Source: Microbacterium croceum (lineage in GTDB: Bacteria > Actinomycetota > Actinomycetes > Actinomycetales > Microbacteriaceae). Taken from it: 64,000 bases of DNA. Positions within the stretch are counted from its first letter, which is position 1. Every line of letters begins with the position of its first letter. The stretch spans positions 2,604,001 through 2,668,000 of the forward strand of contig NZ_JAHWXN010000001.1 of assembly GCF_023091245.1 (NCBI RefSeq), given 5' to 3'. Below the pieces are notes generated by a model, which was given only the letters and a program-made list of their open reading frames with translations, was not told the origin of the DNA and did not search any database. A program made the translations under genes and the position numbers. Below, one piece after another: positions 28,728-33,203 of this stretch.

Positions 28728-29284
28728 TTCTCTTTACCAACTTCGTGTTCAGGGGGCGGGAGTACTTCATCGGATCCGGCCCCTGATCCACTTATCGTGC
28801 AGTTCACTTCATCACGCGCCACCGCGTCGACATCTCGCGACGGCACACCGATTAGCGCTCCGAGAATGGACGCGACCCCTCCGCCGCGCGCATCCCGAGC
28901 AGTTCGGAGTCGAGTCGATAACGGTTCTCCGCGTTCCGATCGCTCGTGAGCAGGAGAACACACGCAGAAACTCCGCGATTCGACAACGCTTCCCAGACAT
29001 GCAGCTACATGGCTTCGACCCTCTGTGCAGAGCCTCCGCAGAAAGAGCGTACGTCAAGAAAGTGTCGGAGACCAGCAAGAAGTTCGTCTTGAGGGCTCCT
29101 CGAGGGGGCGGAACCGGGGGCTTCCCAGCGGTTCCTCACCCGTTCCGCCGTCCCTGCCGTACTGCACACGGTTGCCCCTTGTGCGTCTCCGGTTTGAGCT
29201 TTCCGATGTTCGCGAGCGTCACGGTGCGGTCCTGACTGGCGCGGTCGAGCAGTTCGTCTCGCACAAGAGAATCGTCGCCGGCAT
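28728..29284. other. 557-bp region without a supported gene
   Basis: Open frames exist on both strands, but they show no family resemblance, biased composition or start signals. I see no tRNA, strong hairpin or long repeat. Codon-like GC periodicity appears weaker than in the neighbours, so it may be decayed sequence. Confidence 0.5.
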
Positions 29285-30001
29285 TCAGGCGACACCGCTC
29301 GTTCCCAGCAAGGTGCCGATGCCGAAGGTGACTCCCAGCGCGAGCGCCCCGCCGATCACCACACGGATGGTCGGCCTGATCGCGGGGTTCCCGCCGATTC
29401 TCGCGCTGATGAATCCGGTCAGTGCGAGAGCCACCAGCACCACCGCGAACGCGACCTGCACGCGGACTTCCGGAGGAGGCAACAGGATCGCCAGCAGCGG
29501 AAGCAGCGCCCCGAGGGCGAATGCCAGCGCCGACGAACCGGCCGCCGCCCACGGGCTGACGATGTGATCTTCGGTGATGCCCAGCTCCGCTTCGAGGTGC
29601 GCCGTCAGCGGATCGTGCGCGGTCAGTTCCTCCGCCACGAGCCGTGCAGTCTCCGGTCGGAGGCCTTTCGCCTCATATATCCCCGTCAGCTCGTCCAGCT
29701 CAGTCGCCGGGTCGGCAGCCAGCTCACCGCGCTCCTTCTCGATCAGCGCCTGCTGGCTGTCCCGCTGGCTGCTCACCGACACGTACTCCCCCAGCGCCAT
29801 CGAGATCGCACCGCCTACGAGTCCGGCCACGCCCGCCGCGAGCAACGGTGCGGAGTCGGTCGTCGCGCCGGCGACGCCCACCACGAGTGATGCGACCGAG
29901 ACGATGCCGTCGTTCGCACCCAGCACGCCCGCCCTGAGCCAGTTCAGCCGCCCGGCGAGATCACCACGATGCGGTTCTCCGGGATGTGTCGTCGATGTCA
30001 T
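29285..30001 (-). CDS. VIT1/CCC1 family metal transporter
   Basis: This 238-residue membrane protein belongs to the VIT1/CCC1 family, which moves Fe2+ or Mn2+ out of the cytoplasm. Five membrane segments are visible: LRAGVLGANDGIVSVASLVVG (conserved N-terminal helix with Asn-Asp-Gly), a second near 52-72 with MALGEYVSVSSQRD (metal-site helix), and three C-terminal ones (about 145-235). The cytoplasmic helical region (80-135) is Glu-rich, as in metal-binding members. Its start overlaps the DUF1003 gene by 4 bp (ATGA), so both belong to one operon. Confidence 0.9.
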   Translation of the reverse strand: MTSTTHPGEPHRGDLAGRLNWLRAGVLGANDGIVSVASLVVGVAGATTDSAPLLAAGVAGLVGGAISMALGEYVSVSSQRDSQQALIEKERGELAADPATELDELTGIYEAKGLRPETARLVAEELTAHDPLTAHLEAELGITEDHIVSPWAAAGSSALAFALGALLPLLAILLPPPEVRVQVAFAVVLVALALTGFISARIGGNPAIRPTIRVVIGGALALGVTFGIGTLLGTSGVA

Positions 30002-30426
30002 GAGCCCGCCCCTTCCTCTTGCGCCACGTGAGACGGAAGACCCACGCGAAGCTCCTGCAGCAGTGTCAGCTGCATCCTATTGATCTCCATCAGCTCCTCG
30101 ATCTCCTTCTTCGCCGCGAGGTTCGTCTCGTAGTCGTGCTGGGCGAGGGCCGCCGCGATGGCATCCTGCCGCTTCGCTGCGATCAGCAGGATCGCACCCT
30201 GGAGACCGGCAAGCATGCTGAGGAACAGGTTGAGCAGGATGTACGGATACGGATCCCACTTCACCGCGGTGATGTTGATCGCGGCCCACGCGACCATGAA
30301 CAGCACGAACCCGCCGATGAACAACCACGAGCCCATGCCGTTTCGGAGCCGGTCAGCCGCCCGCTCGCCGCGCGTGAGCTGCTCTGCCTGTGCGGAATGC
30401 CAGTTCGTGAGAGGTCGGGTCGTCAT
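29998..30426 (-). CDS. DUF1003 membrane protein
   Basis: This 142-residue protein matches DUF1003: a basic N-terminal part (GERAADRLRNGMGSW), two membrane helices (about 33-52 and 62-88, with WDPYPYILLNLFLSMLAGLQGAI split between loop and helix) and a helical C-terminus (KKEIEELMEINRMQ). TACTCT (30433-30438, minus strand) ends 6 nt before ATG 30426, indicating a leaderless start; the frame is open further upstream. It is translationally coupled to the VIT1-type transporter. Function unknown, perhaps an accessory membrane subunit. Confidence 0.87.
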   Translation of the reverse strand: MTTRPLTNWHSAQAEQLTRGERAADRLRNGMGSWLFIGGFVLFMVAWAAINITAVKWDPYPYILLNLFLSMLAGLQGAILLIAAKRQDAIAAALAQHDYETNLAAKKEIEELMEINRMQLTLLQELRVGLPSHVAQEEGAGS

Positions 30427-30533
30427 CGGCCCAGAGTACGCCCGGGCCCTCATCCGGCATCGCTGCGGAAGCCTACCCAACATCAACCCGTGGGTGGTGG
30501 TCAGCGGTCCGGACCGTTTCTACCGTTGACAAC

Positions 30534-31265
30534 ATGGCGAGAATCAGCGCTCAAGGGCCTGCGCAGGCGCAGACCGACATCACGCGCATAGCTGCCGCCG
30601 ACGTGTCGCATCGCTACGGGGCGACCGTCGCGCTGGCGGACGTCGCACTCTCGATCCGGGACGGAGAGTCGGTGGCGATCATGGGACCGTCCGGATCAGG
30701 AAAGAGCACGCTGCTTCACATCCTCGCCGGGATCGTTCGTCCCGACGCCGGCACGGTGATGCTGCGCACATCACGAGGCACCGTGGACGTCGCGACGATG
30801 AAGGATCGCGAGCGGTCCGCGCTGAGGTTGACGGAGTTCGGCTTCGTCTTCCAACAGGGGATGCTCATTCCGGAGCTGACGGCTGCCGAGAACGTCGCTC
30901 TGCCGTTGCTGTTGAACGGCGCGCGCAGGGCGGAAGCCGCTCACACCGCCGAGAACCTCCTCGACGAGCTGGGACTTCACGGGATCAGCGGGCGACGGAT
31001 CGGGCAGCTCTCCGGTGGGCAGGCGCAGCGTGTGGCCATCGCGAGAGCGCGGGCGACCCAGGCGCAGGTGATCTTCGCTGACGAGCCGACCGGCGCGCTC
31101 GATTCACGCACGGCAACCGACGTTCTCGGCGCGCTTCTCGCCGCCACCGCGGAGCGCGGGCGCTCGTTGGTCGTGGGGACGCACGACGAGCGCGTGGCAG
31201 CGCGGTGCGATCGGGTGGTCCGTCTGCGCGACGGACGGATCGACAGTGACGAGGCGCCCCGATGA
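30534..31265 (+). CDS. ABC transporter ATP-binding protein, LolD/MacB type
   Basis: This 243-residue ATPase has Walker A GPSGSGKST, the Q-loop FVFQQGMLIPE, the signature LSGGQAQRVAIARA, Walker B VIFADEPTGALD and the H-loop VVGTHD. The sequence resembles the ATPases that partner FtsX-like permeases in peptide or antibiotic export. TACCGT (30521-30526) ends 7 nt before the ATG. It overlaps the next gene by 4 bp (ATGA). Because the permease partner downstream is truncated and fused, this ATPase may have lost its normal partner. Confidence 0.93.
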   Translation: MARISAQGPAQAQTDITRIAAADVSHRYGATVALADVALSIRDGESVAIMGPSGSGKSTLLHILAGIVRPDAGTVMLRTSRGTVDVATMKDRERSALRLTEFGFVFQQGMLIPELTAAENVALPLLLNGARRAEAAHTAENLLDELGLHGISGRRIGQLSGGQAQRVAIARARATQAQVIFADEPTGALDSRTATDVLGALLAATAERGRSLVVGTHDERVAARCDRVVRLRDGRIDSDEAPR

Positions 31266-32428
31266 GGTGGCAGGTGCTCTCGGTGCTTCTTCGCCCCCCA
31301 TCCGGCGATGCGTCCACGCTGGTGCTGCCCGTCGTCGCGTCCGCGATGGTCGGGACGGTGACGTACTTCGCGGTGGCGTTGGCCAGACTGTTCTGGGTCG
31401 CGCCCGACGACGGTTTCGGGCAGTACAAGATCCTCGCAGCAGGCCTTCTGGCCGTGCTCGTGGTGCCGGCGGCGACCGTGGGAACCTCGGCGGCCCGGCT
31501 CTCCGTGCGCCGCAGGGAAGACCGGCTGGCGGTGCTCCGTCTGCTCGGCGCATCATCGGGGTGGGTGCGCGGCGTCACCATGATCGAAGCCTCGCTGTTG
31601 GCTCTGGTGGGGGCGATCACGGGGCTTCTCGGATACGCAGCACTGGCCCCCGCCCTCACCTTCATCCCGGTCGCGGGGAGGTCCGCTCCGCTGGCGGAGA
31701 TATGGCTTCCGGTGTGGGGGCTCTGCCTGTTGCTCGTCGCGCTGACAGGCGTGTCCACGTTCAGCGCCGCGGCCGGGCTACGCCGAGTGATCGTCTCGCC
31801 GCTGGGTGTCCGGATGCGGGTGAACGCTCCCCGGCTGCATCGGGTCCGGCTTCTCGTGGGCGTCGCGATCCTCGTCGGGGGGATCATCCTGCTGCAGCTG
31901 CCGTCCGCGAGCTGGGGCGCTGTCGGGATCACCGTGGCGATCGTGGTCGTGCTGGTGGCGGTGATGGCCGCGCTGAACATCGTCGGGCCGTTCCTGACCG
32001 GAGTGGTCGCGCGGCGACGGCTCGCTCGTGTCAGGAACGCTGAGGGCCTGATCGCCGCGCGCAGCGTGCTCGAGTCGCCCGTGATCCGCGTCGGCACGGC
32101 GATCCCGGACGACCCGACGCTGAGCACCACGATCTACCGCATCACCCAGGAAGCTCTCACGAATGCCCTGCGATACGCCGCAGGAGCAACCCGGGTCGAC
32201 GTGCGGATCGAGTCCGACGGGACCGCGGTCTCGCTGACGGTCACCGACGACGGACACGCGACAGCCGCGGATGCACCGCCCCAGGGCAGCGGCAGAGGGT
32301 TGCAGGGCATCGCTGAACGCGCAGCCGCGTTCGCGGGAGCCGCCAGCAGCGGACCGCTCCCCGCCGGCGGGTGGCGCACCACGGCGACCCTGCGGCTCGA
32401 CGACGAAAGCGAGACGGATCCCTCATGA
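31262..32428 (+). CDS. In-frame fusion: truncated ABC permease with histidine-kinase ATPase domain
   Basis: Residues 1-272 are the N-terminal part of an FtsX-like ABC permease, with hydrophobic segments near 20-45, 60-82, 106-132, 148-170, 200-218 and 226-250 and the permease phrase LAVLRLLGASSGWVRGVTMIE. From about residue 275 the sequence switches, without stop or frameshift, to the C-terminal ATPase of a NarL-type histidine kinase: N box YRITQEALTNALRYA, G1 VTDDGHA, G2 GSGRGLQGIAERA. The dimerisation/phospho-acceptor domain (HisKA_3) and the kinase sensor are missing, and so is the C-terminal part of the permease. The junction lies near 32078-32100. It looks like a deletion between neighbouring permease and kinase genes; assembly error is the alternative. 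Confidence 0.85.
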   Translation: MRWQVLSVLLRPPSGDASTLVLPVVASAMVGTVTYFAVALARLFWVAPDDGFGQYKILAAGLLAVLVVPAATVGTSAARLSVRRREDRLAVLRLLGASSGWVRGVTMIEASLLALVGAITGLLGYAALAPALTFIPVAGRSAPLAEIWLPVWGLCLLLVALTGVSTFSAAAGLRRVIVSPLGVRMRVNAPRLHRVRLLVGVAILVGGIILLQLPSASWGAVGITVAIVVVLVAVMAALNIVGPFLTGVVARRRLARVRNAEGLIAARSVLESPVIRVGTAIPDDPTLSTTIYRITQEALTNALRYAAGATRVDVRIESDGTAVSLTVTDDGHATAADAPPQGSGRGLQGIAERAAAFAGAASSGPLPAGGWRTTATLRLDDESETDPS

Positions 32429-33087
32429 GTCCGGCTCCGGTGCGCGTCCTCGTCGTCGACGATCAGCCCCTCGTGCGCATGGGCAACGCGCTCGTCCTCG
32501 ACAGCGCCGACGATATCGAGGTGGTCGCAGAAGCAGGCAGCGGCGAAGAGGGCATCGCCATGGCGGAGATGTGCAGGCCCGACGTCGTGCTGATGGACGT
32601 ACGCATGCCGGGCATCGGAGGCATCGCCGCCACCCGAGAGATCACCGCCGCACATCCCGACATCAGGGTCATCATCCTCACCACCTTCGACATCGACGAG
32701 TACGCCTTCGGCGGCCTCCAGGCGGGTGCGAGCGCCTTCCTCCTCAAGAGCAGCACGCCCGAGGCGCTCACCGCCGCCGTCCGCACCGTCGCCTCCGGAG
32801 ACGGGGTCGTCGAGCCGCGCATCACCAAGCGGCTCATCGATCACTACGCACAACGCGCCCCCGCGTCCGGGGGCGACCGTCGGCCTCCGCCGCTGGACCG
32901 TCTCACTCCGCGCGAGCACGACGTGTTCCTGGCGATCGCCACGGGACTCACCAATCCCGAGATCAGCGCGCAGCTGCACCTCACGCCGGCGACGGTGAAG
33001 ACGCACGTCAACCGCATCTTCGCGAAGCTCGGCGTGCGGGATCGCGTCCACGCGGTCATCCTGGCCTACACGCTCGAAATCGTCTGA
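32425..33087 (+). CDS. NarL/LuxR-family response regulator
   Basis: This 220-residue regulator has a receiver domain (VRVLVVDDQPLVRMG, phospho-acceptor Asp58 in VVLMDVRMPG, TTFDIDEYAFGGLQAGASAFLLK) and a C-terminal LuxR helix-turn-helix (LTPREHDVFLAIATGLTNPEI, then LTPATVKTHVNRIFAKLGVRDR). Its ATG overlaps the stop of the permease-kinase fusion (ATGA). Its natural kinase would be the protein whose ATPase domain survives in that fusion; without the phospho-acceptor histidine it may be phosphorylated by another kinase or not at all. Confidence 0.93.
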   Translation: MSPAPVRVLVVDDQPLVRMGNALVLDSADDIEVVAEAGSGEEGIAMAEMCRPDVVLMDVRMPGIGGIAATREITAAHPDIRVIILTTFDIDEYAFGGLQAGASAFLLKSSTPEALTAAVRTVASGDGVVEPRITKRLIDHYAQRAPASGGDRRPPPLDRLTPREHDVFLAIATGLTNPEISAQLHLTPATVKTHVNRIFAKLGVRDRVHAVILAYTLEIV

Positions 33088-33130
33088 CGGTGCTCGTCCG
33101 GCGTGGCGCAGGCGGGTGGAGAAGAAACGG

Positions 33131-33203
33131 TGGGCCCTGCCGGGATCGAACCGACGACATCCACGGTGTAAACGTGGCGCTCTACCAGCTGAGCTAAAGG
33201 CCC
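33131..33203 (-). tRNA. tRNA-Val (UAC anticodon)
   Basis: The 73-nt minus-strand sequence folds as a cloverleaf: acceptor GGGCCTT pairing with AGGGCCC, D arm with AGCTCAGCTGGTAGAGC, anticodon stem CCACG/CGTGG around loop TTTACAC (anticodon TAC) and T arm with GGTTCGATCC. No complete CCA is encoded at the 3' end. Confidence 0.96.

Follow-up and report, generated by a model that had tools for sequence, protein, structure and literature searches.

A probable deletion chimera of an FtsX-type permease and a DesK/VraS-like kinase ATPase domain in Microbacterium croceum

Among the systems closest to the locus described here are the BceAB-BceRS antimicrobial-peptide modules of Firmicutes, whose permease carries a large extracellular domain between transmembrane helices 7 and 8 (TM7-TM8), and kinases of the DesK/VraS/LiaS type (HisKA_3 family). 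The kinase and regulator of Bce systems belong to types that differ from DUF7134/HisKA_3 kinases and NarL-type regulators. In Listeria, VirAB-VirRS-AnrAB is described as a single two-component system linked to a pair of ATP-binding cassette (ABC) transporters (PMC7828314), and the SLC5-kinase fusions CbrA and CrbS are described as families of sensor kinases in which a transporter domain is joined to kinase parts. A damaged kinase has been described in Corynebacterium glutamicum, where the regulator partnered with the pseudokinase ChrS is driven by a paralogous kinase (PMC9491836) and controls the exporter HrtBA, with HrtB being of the MacB-like class (PMC5985334). Here we analyze 64,000 nucleotides of Microbacterium croceum (contig NZ_JAHWXN010000001.1, positions 2,604,001 to 2,668,000; hereafter the window), in which an open reading frame (ORF) between the genes for an ABC ATPase and a NarL-type response regulator joins part of an FtsX-type permease to the ATPase domain of a histidine kinase.

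We consider it very probable that this fusion gene is a relic chimera which arose by a lineage-specific single deletion of about 3.26 kb in a six-gene operon. Pfam assigns residues 64–175 of the product to FtsX (PF02687; E-value 5.9e-7; 30.0 bits at a cut-off of 25.5) and residues 289–379 to HATPase_c (PF02518; E-value 4.3e-9; 37.2 bits at a cut-off of 26.4). When aligned to L036, the syntenic locus of genome G117 that served as reference, the window matches up to position 32079 (L036 4558) and again from 32084 (L036 7817), so that the break in the DNA match falls at residues 272/275, where an earlier interpretation of the locus from its sequence alone (the sequence-only reading) had located the transition from permease to kinase. 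Residues 1–272 represent an FtsX-type permease and residues 275–388 a DesK/VraS-like kinase ATPase domain. The 3,258 bp of L036 that are missing from the window comprise the last third of the permease gene including the last four helices, the following two genes in their entirety together with a promoter region inside the operon, and codons for kinase residues 1–282, among them the phospho-acceptor. In line with this, HisKA_3, which represents the dimerization and histidine phosphotransfer (DHp) domain with the phospho-acceptor histidine, has no Pfam match in the fusion and is found in the kinases of L036 and of the database entry P0039; the absence of the C-terminal permease part and of the sensor and phospho-acceptor parts of the kinase was recognized correctly by the sequence-only reading. 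All three conserved ATPase boxes are present, as had also been claimed, and are located at residues 295–306, 328–333 and 342–354; we take them to be the N, G1 and G2 boxes, respectively. Likewise, 4-bp ATGA overlaps are kept on both sides, with the ABC ATPase gene (ATG at 31262, stop codon 31263–31265) and with the regulator gene (ATG at 32425, stop codon 32426–32428). A structure model of the fusion product has six long helices, a linker (residues 272–283) with a predicted local distance difference test score below 50, and a confidently modeled ATPase domain. The model of an intact relative, the 442-amino acid protein P0003, has ten helices, the membrane assignment being our own. The two four-helix halves plus two joining helices that define a double permease are thus predicted to be incomplete in the six-helix fusion. 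Little microhomology is apparent at the break.

Features of the fusion locus in the window (all positions refer to the window)
Feature	Position	Strand	Remarks
Dyad motif TCAACCCGTGGGTGG (putative operator for the regulator)	30483..30497	+	Base 30494 deviates from the consensus TCAACCCNTGGTTGG
TACCGT, -10-like box	30521..30526	+	Between motif and start codon; proposed from position and similarity among loci only
ABC ATPase, first transporter module, LolD/MacB/FtsE class	30534..31265	+	PF00005, E-value 1e-32
Fusion ORF	31262..32428	+	388 amino acids, no internal stop
Permease part	31262..32079	+	First six membrane helices of the ancestral ten-helix permease; based on the end of the DNA match to relatives at 32079 and on modeled helices
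Deletion junction	32080..32083	+	Four bases matching neither side of L036; L036 4559–7816 missing
Kinase part, HATPase_c domain only	32084..32428	+	Corresponds to the L036 kinase from residue 283
NarL-type response regulator	32425..33087	+	Receiver PF00072, E-value 2.3e-26; helix-turn-helix PF00196, E-value 1e-17

The ancestral layout can be read from the relatives. The order ABC ATPase, permease, second ABC ATPase, ABC-2 type permease, kinase, NarL-type regulator is complete at five loci (L036, L037, L076, L077 and L039), and L038 follows it as far as its contig goes, the contig ends falling inside the permease gene and the regulator gene. In L036 the permease comprises 441–449 amino acids, depending on the start chosen, and the kinase 397 amino acids with DUF7134, HisKA_3 and HATPase_c domains; the second ABC ATPase scores best, though always below cut-off, with NCBIfam models of the lantibiotic-protection, GldA and DrrA types. 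The first ABC ATPase of the window, for which LolD is the best NCBIfam name (also below cut-off), shares 79% of its amino acids with that of L036, and the window's regulator is NarL-type in that its receiver and LuxR/GerE helix-turn-helix domains both score above cut-off. Both flanks are common to L036 and the window, with a presumably lactate/malate-dehydrogenase-like gene upstream and a presumably pyruvate-dehydrogenase-E1-like gene downstream; the same comparison revealed no counterpart of the window's flanks in L037 or L039. Separate halves and the gene order in relatives support the in-frame deletion that the sequence-only reading had proposed, but not its assumption that neighboring genes were joined, because in the nearest relatives two ABC-2 genes lie between permease and kinase. 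The ORF is very probably a clean, natural deletion chimera whose origin was proposed correctly in kind while the extent of the loss was understated.

A permease gene directly next to the kinase gene, the unfused order expected by the sequence-only reading, was encountered in a more distant genome (L088 2285–6406; ABC ATPase, permease, kinase, regulator), where the second transporter has no match. If a four-gene operon of this kind were the immediate ancestor, only about 1.4–1.5 kb would have been lost. We regard this as very unlikely, because identity to the permease part of the window is 55% for L088 as compared with 70–72% for the six-gene relatives G060, G117 and G023, and because the syntenic L036 has six genes. 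The L088 gene order points to an ABC-2 pair that can be removed from, or was inserted into, the operon.

The fusion was compared at the protein level with 149 genomes of the genus (its own included) and with 398 genomes of the family, some of them again from the genus (E-values up to 1e-40), and at the DNA level with 366 genomes of the genus; the three sets overlap. Among the matches listed, a full-length match was confined to the own genome (1 of 149), as was the junction at the DNA level (1 of 366). In the family-level search 26 of 398 genomes matched, again with a full-length match in the own genome only. Since a continuous match elsewhere would rank at the top, its absence from the matches listed in the genus searches is informative. 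In G117, G060, G023 and G083 the protein query splits into a permease match up to residue 274 and a kinase match from residue 271 or 273, which lie 3.24–3.31 kb apart on the same contig. The identity of these halves amounts to 55–72% (permease) and 58–76% (kinase), G083 being lowest with 55–58% and the other three ranging from 69 to 76%. At the DNA level the same split was observed in these four genomes, in G257 and G258, and, judged by its listed matches alone, in G227. Permease matches that run past residue 276 are only 35–40% identical and end at residues 301–331, before most of the ATPase domain; matches over about residues 151–377 (32–34% identity) belong to open frames of 384–402 amino acids, which were taken as kinases (both among the matches listed). 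The possibility that the architecture represents a normal protein family, which the sequence-only reading itself had raised, was rejected: among the best 120 of 495 database proteins (8000 candidates scored), FtsX and HATPase domains co-occur in P0002 alone, which is the protein of the window itself. Closest among the unfused proteins in this set are P0003 (91% identical to the permease part) and P0039 (90% to the kinase part); both are JGI records and may stem from different organisms. Another fusion of usually separate parts, FtsX and ABC ATPase domains, is present in P0057, a 329-amino acid protein named from Saccharopolyspora. In the literature, the titles and abstract openings searched made no mention of a fusion between an FtsX permease and a kinase ATPase domain, which is no proof of absence.

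The occurrence of the junction in one genome only would also be expected if the assembly were in error and the true locus were the six-gene operon. This is quite unlikely in view of the clean in-frame join with both halves open and of the uniqueness of the junction, of which none of fifty 16-mers (and one of fifty-two 14-mers) is repeated in the window. Moreover, the fusion ORF is located on contig 1 (2.95 Mb) of a 3.68-Mb genome in three contigs with 100% completeness and 0.03% contamination, and on none of these contigs is there a close second copy of the missing segment, its best match being 71% over 592 bases and others 73–75% over 121–216 bases or 72–89% over 36–100 bases. Neither half of the fusion has a close second copy in the own genome.

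The intact relative P0003 is predicted to lack the large extracellular domain of Bce permeases, as its modeled helices 269–301 and 308–346 adjoin, and the window's copy lacks both of these helices. The relatives pair DUF7134/HisKA_3 kinases with NarL-type regulators. The window's copy retains six helices and no DHp domain, and it differs from DesK/VraS/LiaS-type kinases in being devoid of the sensor and the histidine-bearing HisKA_3 domain. The relatives' operon resembles VirAB-VirRS-AnrAB as described in pairing two transporters with one two-component system, yet in the relatives both transporters and the two-component system form one gene row. With CbrA and CrbS the fusion shares the joining of a transporter domain to kinase parts; unlike these described sensor kinase families, it is a lone deletion product without phospho-acceptor. 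ChrS, as portrayed in the account cited above, is the reverse case in that its ATPase domain is damaged and its DHp domain kept.

With L036 as outgroup, the permease part shows 9 window-specific versus 7 relative-specific changes when compared with P0003 (263 columns, 239 identical, 8 all-different), and the ATPase part 3 versus 5 when compared with P0039 (114 columns, 103 identical, 3 all-different). When L036 itself is the relative, with L037 and L076 as outgroup where both agree, the corresponding numbers are 11 versus 8 for the ABC ATPase, 9 versus 7 for the ATPase part of the fusion, 31 versus 18 for the permease (p 0.085) and 18 versus 11 for the regulator (p 0.27). Two points speak against a relic: both halves are open and neither is significantly accelerated relative to its relatives, and the kept frame and overlaps would be unlikely for a long-dead gene. 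The lack of acceleration means that the deletion is recent, or that the ORF is tolerated or selected; kept frame and overlaps would be explained equally well if the deletion were very young or if the product were under selection. Of seven window-specific permease changes at sites where four outgroups and P0003 agree, three are found shortly ahead of the junction (residues 257, 259 and 262), a cluster with a chance of 0.007 if changes were evenly spread, which was, however, spotted after the fact. The dN/dS (nonsynonymous to synonymous substitution rate) values of 0.17–0.34 for pairs with the window cover mostly the time before the deletion and are silent on the fusion itself.

Of the two outcomes considered by the sequence-only reading, a decaying module agrees best with the data, even though neither half shows measurable decay; no result favors a membrane-tethered ATPase acting on another kinase over a relic. 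The product would not work as a permease because it has lost the last four helices, the counterpart of the MacB-like half of BceB, nor as a kinase because phospho-acceptor, dimerization domain and sensor are all missing. The intact regulator would be transcribed from the first promoter alone, in the absence of a cognate kinase or phosphatase, and could be active only as unphosphorylated protein, via small phospho-donors, or via another cellular kinase. The locus most likely represents a sensing/transport operon that has been broken and has left its regulator orphaned; the module is probably being lost. Cross-talk from a paralogous kinase to the orphan regulator, in analogy to the ChrS case, is possible because the own genome holds seven further kinase-like matches, including that of L078 6612–10270 on contig 2, where a second-type ABC ATPase, an ABC permease, a kinase (30% identical to that of L036) and a regulator (51%) stand in a row. 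Paralogs of the first ABC ATPase and permease are located at L079 on contig 1, and the operon's two parts are thus represented as separate loci.

Alternatively, the fusion may be functional: the permease half that faces the kinase in BceAB-S would tether an ATPase that either acts in trans on another DesK-type kinase or the regulator or serves as their decoy. We judge this unlikely. The product lacks DHp and hence any known means of docking or dimerization, and in the work on ChrS, deletion of DHp as well reportedly abolished the growth advantage (PMC9491836), an argument against any function of a remnant devoid of DHp. Moreover, direct protein contact in BceAB-S is described as small and mostly lipid-mediated, none of the three genome sets contains a second genome with the fusion among the matches listed, and there is no measurable sign of selection for it. 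The more specific idea that a one-step new signaling part was created, in which a membrane-anchored, histidine-less ATPase on the kinase-facing half of a Bce-like permease would either feed a paralogous DesK-type kinase or block it, thereby re-wiring the orphan regulator, would likewise have only a slim chance of being correct.

The relatives also point to how the operon may be controlled. A dyad with the consensus TCAACCC(C/G)TGGTTGG precedes both transporter modules in L036, L037, L076, L077 and L039 with no or one mismatch; L038 has the second copy with one mismatch, the first region being outside its contig, and L088 has an exact first copy. When seven genomes were scanned, each of the eight exact matches fell at the operon (two each in G117, G258 and G083, one each in G060 and G257), and G023 and the own genome had none. 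The window keeps the first copy with a G where 14 of 14 other sites have T, a deviation that counts in favor of a relic, with figures that are biased upwards because sites were chosen by similarity to the consensus; the second copy of its operon lay inside the deleted segment. None of 100 shuffles of the window contained the 15-base dyad with up to one mismatch. The dyad probably serves the NarL-type regulator as its operator at the two promoters. Several observations count against this: 16 of 21 one-mismatch matches in the seven genomes lie elsewhere and five at the operon, a reversed control pattern gave three matches, a 13-base form matches the window once more (53104, minus strand, one mismatch), L089 has only the second site within one mismatch and L090 none, the paralogous locus L079 has no dyad within two mismatches, and the single site of L078 (two mismatches) is inside another gene region. 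In L037 another copy, its third, at 1895 is followed by an ORF whose start is, in our reading, lipoprotein-like and which may represent an additional target or a helper of this regulator.

In the surroundings, a VIT1 gene and a DUF1003 gene (29285–30486, minus strand) separate the operon from the dehydrogenase-like gene. No blastn match exists in L036 for 29082–30477, which may have been gained in the lineage of the window or lost in that of L036. A tRNA-Val gene (anticodon tac; 33129–33203, minus strand) is situated directly downstream of the regulator gene. Because of this neighbor, and because strong matches to the operon occur in few genomes of the genus among the matches listed, a tRNA-side insertion site is possible.

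If the fusion is a relic, it documents the breakdown of a transporter and two-component operon that leaves an orphan regulator behind, and the comparison exposes the normal layout of this operon, in which both transporter modules are preceded by a common operator-like motif. A functional fusion, in turn, would offer a natural test of the capacity of a DHp-less kinase ATPase domain to act while tethered to the normally kinase-facing half of a transporter.
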